A stretch of 43,305 nucleotides of DNA from positions 1 to 43,305 of the forward strand of contig JAJPKC010000082.1 in NCBI GenBank assembly GCA_021323955.1. The letters are read 5' to 3'. Positions within the stretch are counted from its first letter, which is position 1. The number at the start of each line of letters is the position of its first letter. The notes under the pieces were generated by a model, which worked only from the letters and a program-made list of their open reading frames with translations, had not been told where the DNA came from and did not search any database. This document shows positions 21,838 through 27,958 of the stretch, one piece after another. The translations under genes and the position numbers were made by a program. This DNA comes from Oscillatoriales cyanobacterium Centralia_MAG_596. GTDB taxonomy: Bacteria; Cyanobacteriota; Cyanobacteriia; Leptolyngbyales; Leptolyngbyaceae.

Positions 21838-21907
21838 TGATGGATGGCATAGTCAGTGATTGATTCAGAAAAGTGGGCACACTAAAAACAATTTAGTGGA
21901 GACTGTT

Positions 21908-22222
21908 ATGCGCCCCCATGTATCCCAGGGACAGATTCGTCCCAAGATCAGCACCATGCCGCGCCAGAAAACCGAAGCAGCGGCTTACCTGGATATTTAT
22001 AAGCTTGTTAACGAGAAAACTCGGCTCCAGCATGAACTAGAAACCCTGGACGAACGGCGCGATCGCGTCCAAAAGCGACTGGCGGTTCTTGATACCGCGA
22101 TCGCCGATCTTGAACGTAACGCTCATCAGTTGCGTGATGCAAAACCCTCTGAAGTGGGAGCGATCGCAACGGCAAAAGCACCAGAACTGGACAGCTTCAA
22201 CACACTGTTTTTGGAATATTGA
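21908..22222 (+). CDS. gvpV: GvpV-like gas vesicle accessory protein
   Basis: A 104-residue helical protein. The start is ATG at 21908, with TGGAG about 7 bases upstream; the frame extends 16 codons further back. After the basic N-terminus (MRPHVSQGQIRPKISTMPRQ) comes KTEAAAYLDIYKLVNEKTRL and a long charged coiled coil of EL/ER heptads to about residue 75. This matches proteins encoded next to gvpG in cyanobacterial gas-vesicle clusters and named GvpV; the name rests on memory of the RPKISTMPRQKTEA signature. Its role is unknown, probably assembly. It is on the opposite strand to the other gvp genes, converging with gvpG. Confidence 0.65.
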   Translation: MRPHVSQGQIRPKISTMPRQKTEAAAYLDIYKLVNEKTRLQHELETLDERRDRVQKRLAVLDTAIADLERNAHQLRDAKPSEVGAIATAKAPELDSFNTLFLEY

Positions 22223-22448: not shown

Positions 22449-22697
22449 TTAGGCCATGCTTTGCAGCATGTCTGCAGCACGTTGGTCTTCAAGCGCCTGG
22501 ATTGCTAACAATAATTCCTCTTCTTGTGCCTCAAACTCGTCTTCGGGAATATCGCCCATGTCAAAGGCCAATTGAAGTGCCAGAAGGCGCTTGCTGAGGT
22601 TTTCTGTATCATCTAATTCGGCTTCGGCACGCTCTTGAATTTGTTCCGCAATCCAACCAATACCAGTGACAGGTGCAAAGATGAGTTTAAGCAGCAT
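22449..22697 (-). CDS. gvpG: Gas vesicle protein GvpG
   Basis: 82 residues starting MLLKLIFAPVTGIGWIAEQI, followed by a QERAEAELDDTENLSKRLLA helix and an acidic C-terminal coil (PEDEFEAQEEELLLAIQALE). This is the standard GvpG layout, an assembly factor found with GvpF. The start is ATG at 22695-22697 because it fits the family N-terminus; the frame opens 10 codons earlier with TTG. It is last in the leftward gvp operon, 68 bases after gvpF, and precedes the terminator. Confidence 0.92.
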   Translation of the reverse strand: MLLKLIFAPVTGIGWIAEQIQERAEAELDDTENLSKRLLALQLAFDMGDIPEDEFEAQEEELLLAIQALEDQRAADMLQSMA

Positions 22698-22765
22698 CGG
22701 AAGATAGAAGGTAAAGGGCACAGTCAATTGTTGACAGATTTGATCTCGTACTGAGCAATCAGCAG

Positions 22766-23515
22766 CTAATCATTATTCAGGCGATCGAGCTGCGCGAAGT
22801 TGAAGGGAGCCGTAAAGTTGTTGTAGCGAATCTTGAGGCGTCCATCGAATTGGCGATCGAGGTCTTCAACTTGAGCACTGAACTCGGGTTCTGCCTGCCA
22901 TGAAATTAAATAGGCCGCATTGTAGATCATGGATTCAGTGAGTGTGTCATTTTCAACTCGCTCGCTCGCTAATGGATTTAATGCATCCCGAAATGTTTGA
23001 ATAATGGCTTGCTTGCGGGCTTCCATGGCACGTTCGATCGCCTGTCCAATCGACACCACTTCATCCATGCTGAGGGTTTTGCCTTCCAGCGCGTCGCGTT
23101 TTTCCTTCAGGCTTTGGTTCTCTTCCAAAAGCAGTTGCAGCTCGCGATCGGCCTCCCAGAAAACCTTCACGCCAACCTCACGACGACCATCAAGCTGATC
23201 AAAGAGCTTTTTCAAGCCTTGGCCATACGGAACGGTCAACTGCTGTGTGACGGTGGCCCAGTCTTCGATCACTAGCCCAAACTGAAGCGGAAGCAGTGTC
23301 CGATAGCCCGCATCCATGGCCTGCTCTAGTACCTTCTCATGCCCTAGCAAATTGCGACGACTGGCTAGATAGCGGTCTTGCTGGGCTTCGGAGTACAGAA
23401 ATGTAAAACTATCGACAACCTGAGTATGAACGGGCTGTTTGTCGAGTCCTTCGAGCTGTAAATCTTGCGGTCCCGGTGCCGGGAAAATGCCGTATAGGTA
23501 AAGTCGGTTAGTCAT
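22766..23515 (-). CDS. gvpF: Gas vesicle protein GvpF/GvpL family
   Basis: 249 residues beginning MTNRLYLYGIFPAPGPQDLQ. The N-terminal alpha/beta domain includes SEAQQDRYLASRRNLLGHEK and YRTLLPLQFGLVIED, typical of GvpF/L. A long helical segment with the ENQSLKEKRDALEGKT coil follows. The ATG at 23513-23515 matches the family N-terminus; the reading frame runs 32 codons further upstream through non-conserved sequence. GvpF binds GvpA in the nascent vesicle and is needed for assembly. It lies between gvpK and gvpG, and is the only GvpF/L in the window. Confidence 0.93.
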   Translation of the reverse strand: MTNRLYLYGIFPAPGPQDLQLEGLDKQPVHTQVVDSFTFLYSEAQQDRYLASRRNLLGHEKVLEQAMDAGYRTLLPLQFGLVIEDWATVTQQLTVPYGQGLKKLFDQLDGRREVGVKVFWEADRELQLLLEENQSLKEKRDALEGKTLSMDEVVSIGQAIERAMEARKQAIIQTFRDALNPLASERVENDTLTESMIYNAAYLISWQAEPEFSAQVEDLDRQFDGRLKIRYNNFTAPFNFAQLDRLNND

Positions 23516-23627
23516 AGGGCAGAAGATAAGAGGGGGCGCAGAAGATTGATCATGCGATCGCATCACGCTCGATCGAGGTTCTGTCTTATAGTTCCCTGCC
23601 TTACCCTGCACCCTAACGTTTCATTCG

Positions 23628-24089
23628 CTAAATCGGTTTTGCCGTTAGCACCAATTGGAGTTTGGCGTGGATTAAATCGATGTTCGCCAGCCCTAAGTCC
23701 ACATCCCCTTGCAAGACGACGCCTGTGTTTAGCAGGCGATCGAGAAGTTCTAAAATCGTTGGGTTGGCGGTGGTCTCACCGGGATAGTAACCGCCTGCTT
23801 TGGGCAATAGTGTGCCGACTTCACCCAGATCAATGTTTAGATCGGCTGGGTCAATTTCGAATATGGTGCAAATCTCGATGACCTGCTCTTCTAGCTTGCG
23901 GAGACTTTCGGCAGCCCGATCGAGTTCATCATCGCTTAATTCACCCGATTCCATGCGGCGAATAACCTGCGCTTCCATGAGTTGGCGCACCAGTTCCACA
24001 ACAGTTAGCAGAAGTGGCGCTAAGCCAGCATCTTTGCTGGCTTTTGGAGATGCTGGAATGGCTTGAATCGGAAGGTCAGAAGCAGTCAC
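23628..24089 (-). CDS. gvpK: Gas vesicle protein GvpK
   Basis: 153 residues. The family core covers LAPLLLTVVELVRQLMEAQV, the acidic helix ELSDDELDRAAESLRKLEEQ, DPADLNIDLGEVGTLLPKAG, and the C-terminal ILELLDRLLNTGVVLQGDVD. The start is GTG at 24087-24089: the preceding in-frame codon is TGA, and no ribosome-binding site is visible. A 36-codon ORF upstream overlaps this start by 14 bases, so translational coupling is likely. GvpK is an essential minor protein in gas-vesicle formation. Confidence 0.93.
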   Translation of the reverse strand: MTASDLPIQAIPASPKASKDAGLAPLLLTVVELVRQLMEAQVIRRMESGELSDDELDRAAESLRKLEEQVIEICTIFEIDPADLNIDLGEVGTLLPKAGGYYPGETTANPTILELLDRLLNTGVVLQGDVDLGLANIDLIHAKLQLVLTAKPI

Positions 24090-24190: not shown

Positions 24191-24634
24191 TTAGAACTCT
24201 TCAGAAAGCGATTCGAGCGAAAAGGTTGGATCGACGCCAGTTGGCGCTTTAACTGGTGTTGCCTGGTTCGTAGGTGGTAATCGCAGCGATCGCAGTTCGG
24301 CTTCCAGGCTCTCAACACGCTGCTGCAATTGACGGTTAGACTCAATCAGCCCTTGAGACTGGGCGCTGAAATGGGGGTTATTTTCCCACCAGTTGATACC
24401 CATCTCTTTCGCTTTATCAACTGATGCAATCAGCAGGCGAATCCGAATATTCAGCAGTTCGGTGGTGGCAACCGAAACAGAAATGTCACCCGCAATCACG
24501 ATGCCTTTGTCCAGTACGCGCTCCAGAACGTCAGCCAGCGTCGAACCGGCGGTAGCTGTCGAAATGGATCGCGCCGAATCTTTAGTGGAGAGGGGTGCAC
24601 TGGGGAAGGCCTTAGTGGGAAGGGTTGTCGTCAT
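24191..24634 (-). CDS. gvpJ: Gas vesicle protein GvpJ (GvpA-like with C-terminal extension)
   Basis: 147 residues. A Ser/Thr-rich leader of about 30 residues precedes a GvpA-like domain: LADVLERVLDKGIVIAGDIS and VSVATTELLNIRIRLLIASV. A helical extension follows, with a coiled coil (IESNRQLQQRVESLEAELRS) and a flexible tail. Family members are minor vesicle components thought to act at initiation. The ATG lies only 3 bases after the gvpN stop, so the two genes are tightly coupled. Confidence 0.93.
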   Translation of the reverse strand: MTTTLPTKAFPSAPLSTKDSARSISTATAGSTLADVLERVLDKGIVIAGDISVSVATTELLNIRIRLLIASVDKAKEMGINWWENNPHFSAQSQGLIESNRQLQQRVESLEAELRSLRLPPTNQATPVKAPTGVDPTFSLESLSEEF

Positions 24635-24637
24635 GGG

Positions 24638-26014
24638 TTAGGCCTCCGCTAGCAAATAGAGGCGATCGCGCAGCACGACGCTGCCCTTTTCCGTGAGCAG
24701 TCGCAGCACATCTACCGCCCGGAAGCGATCGATCTGCAAGGCCTGCTCAATCTGCGACAGCCGCGCCCCATTCATTTGCGTGAGATAAGCAATGATCTTC
24801 TGCTCATACGATGTTTCGGCTGCGGGTGGACTGTCAGTATCGGTGGGGGAAGCTGAGAACGGTACTGGTACGTCCACGACATCCTCTGTCGTCAGTGCAG
24901 CACTCTCAAGATCATGGATCGCAGCTTCGGCTGCCAGTGCTTCGAGATCGGCTGCAATGGTATCGGCCAGTGCTGCAGCGACTTCTGGGTTAAGTGCGAC
25001 GTCCGGGTTAATGGCGGCTTCTGAATGAACGGCAGCTTCTGGATGAACGGCAGCTTCTGGATGAACGGCGGCCTGATGGTGCGTTGACTCGCTCAGCACT
25101 GCTTCATCCAGGTCTGTTTCAACGACTCCAAGCCCGATCGCGTCATTCAGCAATTCCCACAGGATCTGGGTGGTTTGTGTGAGCGGTAGCCCGGAGCGAG
25201 AGAGCAGCACATCAAAACAGACATCACGAAAATCGGCATTTCCGGGTGACGCTAAGATTTCGTGATCGTGGCAGACTTTACCCAACATCAGGCAAGAGCG
25301 CAGGCCCGACGATTTTTCATTGCCTGTCCGAATCCGGAATTCTTTGACCAGCCGCACAATTAGTAGCGCACTGGCGCGACCGATCTCCGTCTTTTGCACC
25401 AGGATCTCTTGCTGTGTGAGTTCATCTGGTTCCGGCATGTTAATCGTCACCAGCCGATCCATCAGTGCATCCTGCGTTGAATGGACACCACAGTACTCCT
25501 CCGGATTGGACGTGAAGATGGCACGGAAGTGTGGGCTAACGCGAATGTATTCACTGCGATTATTGCTCGGCGGCAATACGAGCAGTTTTTCTTCCAGCGC
25601 TGAAAGCAACACGTTGTTCACTTCAGGACGAGAGCGGTTGAACTCGTCGTAAACCAGCGTGAACCCTTCCCGGCAAGCCAGCGTCAGACGCGAATCAACC
25701 CAGTTTTGGCGGAGCTCATCCTCAACTTTGACGACGCTGTGGATGAAGTTATCCACTACTTTTTTGCGGGTGTAACCCGATTGATTGCCAATCAGGTCAG
25801 AGGTTTTGAACTCGTCATCACCAAATATGAGCATCAGCGGGCGTGCCAGCAGATCGGCTAAATGCAGTGCCAGAGTTGTTTTTCCTGTTCCTGCAGGGCC
25901 ACGCAAATGCACAGAATAGCCCGATTGCAGATAGCGTAAAGCCCGATTCGCGATCCGTTCAACGGAGGGCGTGCTGACAAATCGGCGGGGGCTGGTTCGA
26001 AGTACAGTAGTCAC
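24638..26014 (-). CDS. gvpN: Gas vesicle AAA+ ATPase GvpN with added C-terminal winged-helix-like domain
   Basis: 458 residues. The start is GTG at 26012-26014, with CGAGG 7 bases upstream and the family N-terminus [20 protein letters not shown]. The MoxR-like AAA+ core has Walker [15 protein letters not shown], Walker [15 protein letters not shown], sensor-1 [13 protein letters not shown] and [13 protein letters not shown], and ends near residue 310. An Ala/Glu/Val-rich linker with an 18-bp tandem repeat (24986-25075) follows. The last 55 residues ([20 protein letters not shown] onward) look like a winged helix and closely match the C-terminus of GvpC in this operon. Usual GvpN proteins are much shorter. 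The core is thought to power GvpA or GvpC loading. Confidence 0.93.
24986..25075 (-). repeat. 18-bp tandem repeat inside gvpN linker
   Basis: Five in-register 18-bp units, the three at 25022-25075 nearly identical (TGGATGAACGGCAGCTTC type) and the two at 24986-25021 diverged. They encode six-residue units such as [18 protein letters not shown] and VALNPE. Copy number changes would lengthen or shorten the linker in frame. Confidence 0.8.
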
Positions 26015-26026
26015 AGTTGAACCTCG

Positions 26027-26066
26027 GAGTAGGATGTGGAGTGTCGGGTGTTGGGTGTTGAGTGTG
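26027..26066. repeat. Short tandem heptamer tract upstream of gvpN
   Basis: Near-repeats of GTGTTGG/GTGTCGG/GTGTGGG lie just 5' of the gvpN ribosome-binding site, between gvpC and gvpN. This is the same class of STRR-like tract as at 5556-5609, in the opposite orientation (complement of CCCACAC). It explains the open but non-conserved frame upstream of gvpN. Confidence 0.5.
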
Positions 26067-26141
26067 GGAAAAATCAGAGCAGACTGCGATCGCTGCCGCT
26101 TGCTGGTTCCTGATTCCGCTACCCCACACCCTATTCCCGCG

Positions 26142-27128
26142 TTAGGTATGGGCAAGTTGCATTTGAGACAGGTAGATGCGATCGCGCTGGGTGATCAATC
26201 CTTTTTTGATCAGCGAACGGAGCGCATCGACGGCTTGGACACGGTTGAGACTGAGTGCCGATTCAATTTCAGTCAGACGGGCACCTTGAACACTTTGAAT
26301 GTAGTCATACACCGTGTTTTCGTGGGCGATCGCTTCCCCTGCAGCCGATTTGATTGACTTTGCAGGTGGTACAACCGCAACGGAATTACCGTTTTGAAAC
26401 GCACCAACCGTGGCCGATAGGGTGACTGTACCGTTGGGGGCGACCGAGACACGCCCTACAGGCTTTGTCTTCTTTGGGATCGCTGGTGTGACACGTGTGA
26501 CCGCAACGCTGTGAGGATTGTCTCCCCAGACGGTGCCATGTAAGTCCTGGCAGAAGCGTTGTAACTCTGCCCGAAACACGGCTAACCGCTGAAATAGCTC
26601 CTGGGTCTCCAATTCACGCTTTGCCCGATGGTCGAGGAGCACCTGATTTAGCTGCGTTGCCCGCATTTTGCGCACGGCTTCCAATTCCACCAGGTAGCTC
26701 TGCACATCAGAACGTAAATCGTCAACGAAGGCAATTAGCTCTTGCTCTAGCTGTTGCGCTGCGGTGAGGCGTTCAAACTGCGCCGTTACTAAAAAATCAG
26801 CGGTTTTTTGGCGCAGAAGTTGGACAAAAACAGTCAGATCATGGGCTAACTGAGCGGCTTGAATCTGGCGACGATCGCCCGCGGCGGTTAGCAACGCTTG
26901 CGTTTCCGCTTGCAATCTTTGACAAAACTGCTGTAGCTCGGTTCGGCGGGCAATATTCTCACTCGCCAGTGCGGTACGAAAAAGGCTGAGATCAGCACGC
27001 AGTTGGGCTGCCTTGAGTTGACGCTCTTGCCTGGCAGCCGATAATGATTGAGAGACCATTTGCTGCCGCTCTACTAATTCCTGCTGCCGCTGCTGTCTCT
27101 GCTGCTGCCAAGAATTCTTCAAAGACAT
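26142..27128 (-). CDS. gvpC: Gas vesicle outer-surface protein GvpC with C-terminal winged-helix-like domain
   Basis: 328 residues. The start is ATG at 27126-27128, with GGGAGGG upstream. Residues 1 to about 205 are glutamine- and arginine-rich helices arranged in degenerate ~33-residue repeats with recurring blocks of the type R-x-x-x-A-A-Q-L-x-x-D-L-x-x-F ([42 protein letters not shown]). This is the GvpC pattern that wraps and stiffens the vesicle shell. A flexible linker (205-270) precedes a 55-residue C-terminal domain, [20 protein letters not shown] to QRDRIYLSQ. That domain is nearly duplicated at the end of GvpN. Its function is unknown. Confidence 0.9.
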
Positions 27129-27292: not shown

Positions 27293-27511
27293 TTAAGCCG
27301 AAGGAACAGCCGCTTGAGCTGTCAAACCAACTGCTTCGGCATATTTCAGGTAGGTTTCGACTGATGCAATCACCACACGAGCTTCGATCGCCAGCAATTC
27401 AATACCAACTAAAGAAACGCGGACCCAAGCATCAATCACAATGCCTTTGTCCAAAATGCGATCAACCACTTCAGCCAAGCTAGAGGAAGAGTTTACTTTT
27501 TCAACAGCCAT
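27293..27511 (-). CDS. gvpA: Gas vesicle structural protein GvpA
   Basis: 72 residues, [20 protein letters not shown] followed by [20 protein letters not shown] and [20 protein letters not shown]. This is the near-invariant hydrophobic building block whose ribs form the gas-permeable vesicle wall. AAAGGT lies about 8 bases upstream of the ATG. It is first in the leftward gvp operon and the only gvpA copy in the window; many cyanobacteria have tandem copies. A hairpin after the stop separates it from gvpC. Confidence 0.98.
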
Positions 27512-27958
27512 TATTTTGTACCTTTATGTGGATAGATGGAACTTGGTACGCCTCACCTCTCCCGTAACGGGGTTGACATGGGTTTTGGCTTCCGACTCTA
27601 GAATAGGCAGCGAATTTGTAGAAACAACCGTCGCAATCACGGAACCTCAAATCTTTTTTCTTTGATCAACTCGCAAAATTACTGAGTAATCACGATCGCT
27701 TTATGGGCACAGGGATAATCGAATCAGTGCCCGTTCAAGCGGGGAGCGTGTTGTCGGCTCACCACCGCTTTACACAACTTCATCAATCTCATACCGATTA
27801 CTTGAGTCGGTCGGTGAAGATGTCTGGATGAACAGGCCTATCCCTCAACGTTCGCAGTCTGGCAATCCGGCAGCTTCACTAAAAAAAGCGCGATCGTTCA
27901 TACTGAAAGAGAGCGTCACGCTTGCGTAAAGTACTTAGAGAAGTTTGAGGGAATCGCT
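27512..27958. other. Divergent promoter region between gvpA and the TldE/PmbA gene
   Basis: A 447-base gap with no ORF. It must hold the gvp operon promoter (leftward) and that of the PmbA-like gene (rightward). On the minus strand TTGTTT, a 16-base spacer and TATTCT around 27600-27630 are a weak sigma-70-like candidate for gvpA. No strong operator palindrome was recognised. Confidence 0.4.

Follow-up and report, generated by a model that had tools for sequence, protein, structure and literature searches.

A predicted winged-helix domain common to the C-terminal ends of the gas vesicle proteins GvpC and GvpN in cyanobacteria

The window analysed, a 43,305-nucleotide contig (JAJPKC010000082.1) of Oscillatoriales cyanobacterium Centralia_MAG_596, hosts a gas vesicle gene cluster (Table 1), and among named genomes the best matches to its GvpN come from Stenomitos, Tildeniella, Lyngbya and Leptolyngbya-type cyanobacteria. 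The GvpC product consists of a helical repeat region, an Ala/Pro/Val-rich linker and a C-terminal domain predicted to be a winged helix; in GvpN a similar domain follows an AAA+ ATPase and an acidic linker. The longer gvpN frame opens with a TTG at 26155. GvpN probably starts at the GTG at 26014, since residue 59 of the long frame is the first one covered by the TIGR02640 match. For GvpC, the ATG at 27128 chosen in the original prediction was borne out. PF01304, which describes the 33-residue repeats (cut-off 21 bits), has no match in the GvpC of the window, nor in its genome at E 0.001. The frame has been named GvpC because it is flanked by gvpA and gvpN, because it has helical repeats, and because seven tail-bearing relatives (G017, G058, G072, G096, G117, G179, G214) have frames which, among the matches listed, pass PF01304. 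A coiled-coil ORF, possibly gvpV, lies downstream of gvpG on the opposite strand (21860-22222, plus strand); in 35 other loci a homologue is likewise opposite in strand to gvpN. The gvpA leader (27512-27640, minus strand; GGGAGAGGTGAGGCGTACCAA...CATCTATCC) shows strong conservation between the window and five related loci, and its conserved blocks contain no palindromes in these six sequences. A GvpA-like domain, here found at the end of GvpK, is remarked upon for the Anabaena flos-aquae cluster in the GvpK passage of a 2024 review (PMC10903477).

Table 1. Genes and protein domains of the gas vesicle cluster (window coordinates)
Feature	Position	Strand	Basis
gvpG	22449..22727	-	PF05120 above cut-off
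gvpF	22766..23611	-	PF06386 and NF052351 above cut-off
gvpK, with GvpA-like C-terminal domain	23628..24089	-	PF05121 and PF00741
gvpJ, GvpA-like	24191..24634	-	PF00741 above cut-off; NF046090 (GvpJ) below its own cut-off
gvpN	24638..26014	-	TIGR02640, 393.7 bits (curated cut-off 266.8); PF07728
GvpN C-terminal domain, predicted winged helix	about 24641..24820	-	sequence match to GvpC tail; AlphaFold2
GvpN linker, acidic and of low complexity, joining AAA+ region and tail	24821..25145 (approximate bounds)	-	
gvpC	26142..27128	-	ORF list; sits between gvpA and gvpN
GvpC C-terminal domain, predicted winged helix	26145..26318	-	sequence match to GvpN tail; AlphaFold2
gvpA, major shell protein	27293..27511	-	PF00741, 62.3 bits

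The tails of GvpC and GvpN are members of a common sequence family. When the GvpC tail was used to query its own genome, the GvpN tail was retrieved in a gapless alignment of 48 residues, 48% of them identical (E 1.2e-9), and the third match in the 6.96-Mb genome had an E of 0.49; the gapless identity of 45-50%, the common motifs and the coordinates originally reported were all correct. The analysis was extended to 102 loci of relatives (L005-L106), which together with the window gave tails in 82 loci (domain E below 1e-8), corresponding to 57 GvpC and 65 GvpN tails once copies were removed. Tails are found at the very end of the proteins, at most 4 residues from the end of the frame in 56 of the 57 GvpC, and at most 5 in 59 of the 65 GvpN. 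Two separate profiles, made each of 49 GvpC or 49 GvpN tails by excluding near-copies and some divergent rows, match each other over 63 columns (probability 99.9%, E 3.5e-34). The data lend no support to recent duplication or gene conversion as the origin of the two tails of the window, as GvpC and GvpN tails are as similar within genomes as between genomes (39.9% and 39.3% identity, respectively; permutation p 0.11, 50 loci), and in the tail tree these two are placed apart, each in a starred set of its own kind (GvpC or GvpN). By the same comparison of identities, no co-variation of the two tails was seen. The tree, built on 61 columns, features 6 label changes and weak deep forks, and does not tell single from repeated copying.

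AlphaFold2 was run separately on a GvpC-only and a GvpN-only alignment. In the resulting models the GvpC tail (window 26145-26339; mean pLDDT 84.9) has helices at residues 5-17, 22-29 and 33-45 and strands at 49-52 and 55-58, and the GvpN tail (window 24641-24823; mean pLDDT 87.7) helices at 6-17, 22-29 and 33-46 and strands at 49-52 and 55-58; pLDDT is 90 or more in 42 of the 65 residues of the GvpC model and in 44 of the 61 of the GvpN model. Both tails are thus predicted to form three helices followed by a two-stranded wing, with the elements in the same order and positions. Structure prediction on both C-termini converged on one common fold, the winged helix proposed at the outset, which is supported also by structural neighbours and by weak-to-borderline matches to the Pfam TrmB model. 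Judged by their titles, most of the top 50 Foldseek neighbours of each tail in the PDB are winged helices; TMq is 0.55-0.86, and none has an E of 0.001 or better. Searched against PDB sequences, the GvpC profile weakly matched winged helices (best E 0.065), the GvpN profile Z-DNA-binding domains (E 7e-5). The closest Pfam model is TrmB (PF01978), matched at E 1 or better by 49/49 GvpC and 42/49 GvpN members of the profiles. The two tails of the window, at 19.7 and 18.3 bits, are below the gathering cut-off of 25.6. Among 20 tails of relatives re-scanned, 4 of 10 from GvpC (26.3-26.9 bits) exceed it by about a bit, as does 1 of 10 from GvpN (26.3 bits), and the other 15 do not. No NCBIfam model scored above its cut-off on the tails of the window. 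Similarity to the TrmB-type domain concerns both fold and profile; here, however, the domain ends a shell protein and an ATPase, not a known regulator. RuvB is likewise an AAA+ protein carrying a C-terminal winged helix in the same chain. GvpN differs in having a long, acidic and variable linker in between, and in belonging to TIGR02640, and many GvpN proteins lack the domain.

The tail is real, widespread, and has been noted only in part: an ordinary fold in an unexpected place, with a function that we infer. The original prediction held that the module is missing from standard descriptions of either protein. This is mostly right, yet a match between GvpC and GvpN was published in 2017 for benthic Planktothrix, where 28 residues within the C-terminus of GvpC40 are 64% identical to Planktothrix GvpN, and the 60 C-terminal residues resemble Geitlerinema GvpC (Sci Rep 2017, PMC5259702). 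The relevant passages of that report deal with a sequence match in one genus, and not with fold, wider distribution, losses or function. In the pertinent section of the 2024 review, haloarchaeal GvpC is alone in being given a compact domain at its C-terminus (PMC10903477). No paper linking GvpN to a winged helix was found in the open-licence PMC literature.

The GvpC-tail profile, searched at E 1e-4 in a sample of 291 genomes from the class, matched 95 of them, all having a GvpN match as well, and never more than two places per genome, among the matches listed. GvpN matches were found in 145 genomes. Of these, 139 are over the TIGR02640 cut-off (G043, G182, G188, G230, G254 and G256 were dropped), and 138 could be assessed, the contig of G289 beginning at GvpN. 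Among the matches listed, the tail resides on both proteins in 73 of the 138 genomes, on GvpC only in 13, on GvpN only in 7, and on neither in 45. Assignment to the first class is based on frames compared by eye among the matches listed (67 genomes) or on fetched loci (G020, G029, G061, G185 and G205); G227 was counted in by inference, because one tail lies behind an acidic stretch on another contig. Presence of one tail goes with presence of the other (odds ratio 36), and the same holds when genera are counted (both 40, GvpC only 9, GvpN only 7, neither 16, no genus being mixed; odds ratio 10, p 4e-5), though both ratios are descriptive, because shared ancestry was not removed.

The distribution is uneven also at the level of families. 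GvpC-only genomes belong to families f24 (12) and f14 (1), GvpN-only genomes to f32 (4), f24, f8 and f15, genomes with neither tail to f5, f20, f23, f31, f33, f34 and part of f32. In the 13 GvpC-only genomes, a full-sensitivity search revealed no GvpN tail, either in GvpN or in frames of at least 25 residues of the fetched loci. In turn, a tail-less GvpC-like frame is located upstream of gvpN in five GvpN-only genomes (G041, G048, G208, G237, G124); that of G041 is broken before the end, and none of the frames at this locus shows a tail. PF01304 was passed in the GvpN-only genomes G124, G165, G206 and G237, and by GvpC frames of 144-239 residues in the four GvpN-only genomes of f32. GvpN-only named loci include Nostoc punctiforme and Sphaerospermopsis, and in a Nostoc sphaeroides plasmid the tail is present on GvpN (E 4.5e-23) and absent from a GvpC of 164 residues. 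In Anabaena sp. 54 a 31-residue frame immediately after the GvpN stop (L087:2316-2408, plus strand) contains a weak tail-like stretch (E 0.002), which suggests tail loss.

Occurrence of the tail on the two proteins independently and at random had been indicated as an outcome contrary to the original prediction. What was observed is intermediate: the tails are not randomly distributed, being associated, but are not strictly linked either, since 20 of the 93 tail-bearing genomes have a single copy. Tails are therefore associated but have been lost independently, and such losses argue against an obligate tail-to-tail clasp. A heterodimer obligatorily formed by the two tails is ruled out by the 13 and 7 genomes of 138 in which one protein only is tailed. 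The GvpN-tail profile has a broader reach. At E 0.001 it also matches, among the matches listed, 10 genomes (of the 291) that lack GvpN, and additional places in some GvpN-bearing genomes; in G149 the second match falls outside GvpN. Re-searching eight genomes revealed nine weak places outside gvp genes (E 8e-6 to 8e-4), resembling by eye regulators, a helicase and other proteins.

Tails change more slowly than the linkers which precede them. Over 50 loci, GvpC is best conserved in its tail (mean pairwise identity 62%, against 38% of the repeats and 27% of the linker), and the tail of GvpN, at 41%, is placed between its linker (16%) and the AAA region (78%). Within the genus, dN/dS is 0.084 for both the GvpC tail and the GvpC repeats, 0.054 for the GvpN tail, 0.022 for the AAA region, and 0.175 and 0.319 for the linkers; these ratios should be taken as rough, given the high synonymous distances (1.4-1.9) and the removal, for saturation, of 2-9 of the 21 pairs in five of the six regions. 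E23, R30, V34, L37, L40 and Y53 (alignment columns) are invariant in the 57 GvpC tails, and R at column 30 is kept in 97% of GvpN tails as well. Charge is also patterned. Helix 3 plus the wing have a net positive charge in 57/57 GvpC tails (+3.2 on average); in GvpN the mean is +1.8, with a range from -1 to +6. The GvpN linker is net negative in 64 of 65 tail-bearing GvpN proteins (mean -15.8), and the extension of the tail-less GvpN is negative in 12 of the 13 GvpC-only genomes. Acidic linkers are common, and the charge was counted in these two groups of genomes only.

The reading rated first is that the shared domain works as a protein-docking module, a proposal to which we grant a little less than even confidence. 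Both tails follow flexible linkers at the ends of the proteins. GvpC helical repeats would run along the ribs of the shell, and the winged helix, with its net positive helix-3/wing side, would stand clear of the surface and serve as a landing pad. GvpN would contact it via the acidic linker, and via its own copy of the domain where present. By this contact the ATPase would be kept on the GvpC coat of the vesicle, close to where new GvpA is inserted, and GvpN might perhaps lift GvpC there. A functional parallel is found in Halobacterium, where GvpN has been found to bind GvpC at its C-terminal domain (PMC9372576, PMC9501494); this domain of haloarchaeal GvpC is described as binding GvpN, GvpO and GvpC itself (PMC9372576, PMC9501494, PMC10903477). 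The authors of the Halobacterium work suggested that, at the points of GvpA addition, the GvpC mesh may be broken by GvpN or GvpO (PMC9372576, PMC9501494), and vesicles formed without GvpN are reported to start, stay small and not enlarge (PMC11445434, PMC9501494, PMC10903477). In haloarchaeal GvpC, too, a compact end domain comes after repeats and a linker. Its sequence is however different, with a CxxC...HxxxH-like pattern, and homology to the tails was not found: the tail model had no match in GvpC, GvpN or GvpO of Halobacterium, nor in GvpC or GvpN of Haloplanus (full sensitivity, E up to 1000). The parallel is functional only, since the haloarchaeal domain is not detectably homologous. 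The end of gvpC in Halobacterium pNRC100, which displays such a pattern, resembles by eye a small zinc-binding domain.

The docking of GvpN on GvpC foreseen in the original prediction is hence plausible in view of the Halobacterium case, but obligate pairing of the tails is contradicted by the single-copy genomes, which imply that the two copies do not need each other. Other data do not favor docking. In G112 GvpC is tailed, and GvpN has no tail, no acidic extension and almost no extension at all, which speaks against a dock based on the linker. Within the genus, the dN/dS of the GvpC tail is shared by the repeats, and tail identity is not raised within genomes.

Homotypic assembly is an unlikely, yet credible, alternative to docking. 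According to this hypothesis, the domain pairs mainly with itself, holding together the GvpC mesh and the subunits or rings of GvpN, and GvpC-GvpN contacts are a by-product. This would account for either protein keeping the tail alone, and Halobacterium GvpC is reported to dimerise via its C-terminal part, GvpN to form homodimers (PMC9501494, PMC9372576). However, self-interaction of GvpN is reported both by a 2024 study (PMC11445434), for the system used there, and for Halobacterium; the tail model had no match in Halobacterium GvpN, so the tail is not needed for self-interaction. Rather improbable, though compatible with all four tail patterns, is that both tails bind a common third partner, either another Gvp protein or a host factor, and gather the two proteins at one assembly site. 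Similarity is higher among GvpC tails than among GvpN tails (mean identity 58% and 39% in the same 50 loci), as would be the case for a fixed partner surface.

DNA binding is rated last. Through it, the tails might anchor vesicles to the nucleoid or spread them over it, or exert feedback control of gvp transcription. The TrmB resemblance, and the tails of relatives which pass the TrmB cut-off, point to such a role, as do many of the top Foldseek titles (7bzh, IclR, MarR, TrmBL2, AspA, Z-DNA binders), and the positive, conserved helix-3/wing side fits a DNA-binding winged helix too. However, protein-binding winged helices (ESCRT-II, cullin WHB) are among the neighbours too, an acidic residue (D or E, column 35) is found mid helix 3 in 98% of GvpC tails, and the charge of the whole domain is near zero (means -0.1 in GvpC and -0.6 in GvpN). 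An operator for feedback control was not found either, as no inverted repeat (arms of 7-9 bases, gaps under 12) occurs in the 320 bases upstream of the gvpA of the window. DNA binding is, on the whole, the least probable function of the tails, and quite doubtful.

A further type of GvpC end emerged from tail-less genomes. In 14 of the 18 loci examined, the GvpC-like frame upstream of gvpN ends with a different conserved element, RDLL..GA..L.VDPSEIL..L (L193, L194, L197, L199-L204, L206-L210). A model of the element seeded by three of the 14 loci matched no frame in the other loci searched. Taken together with the haloarchaeal domain, the element suggests that the GvpC end is an exchangeable module. 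Docking could accordingly be a more general theme: the GvpC end would be an exchangeable docking head, whose winged-helix version, present also on GvpN, recruits the ATPase to the vesicle surface, an unrelated domain being used by Halobacterium and a third head by other cyanobacteria. We offer this broader scheme tentatively, as one that may easily prove wrong.

The customary view of cyanobacterial GvpC as a protein made of 33-residue repeats alone changes, given that a tail is found on GvpC in 86 of the 138 assessable GvpN-bearing genomes. As foreign peptides are commonly fused to the GvpC C-terminus (PMC9372576), a native docking domain at this end would be of practical use in engineering. 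The domain common to GvpN and GvpC provides a small, separable part for testing how GvpN is recruited to the growing vesicle. If the docking interpretation is true, a fold typical of transcription factors would be a structural part of an organelle assembly machine.
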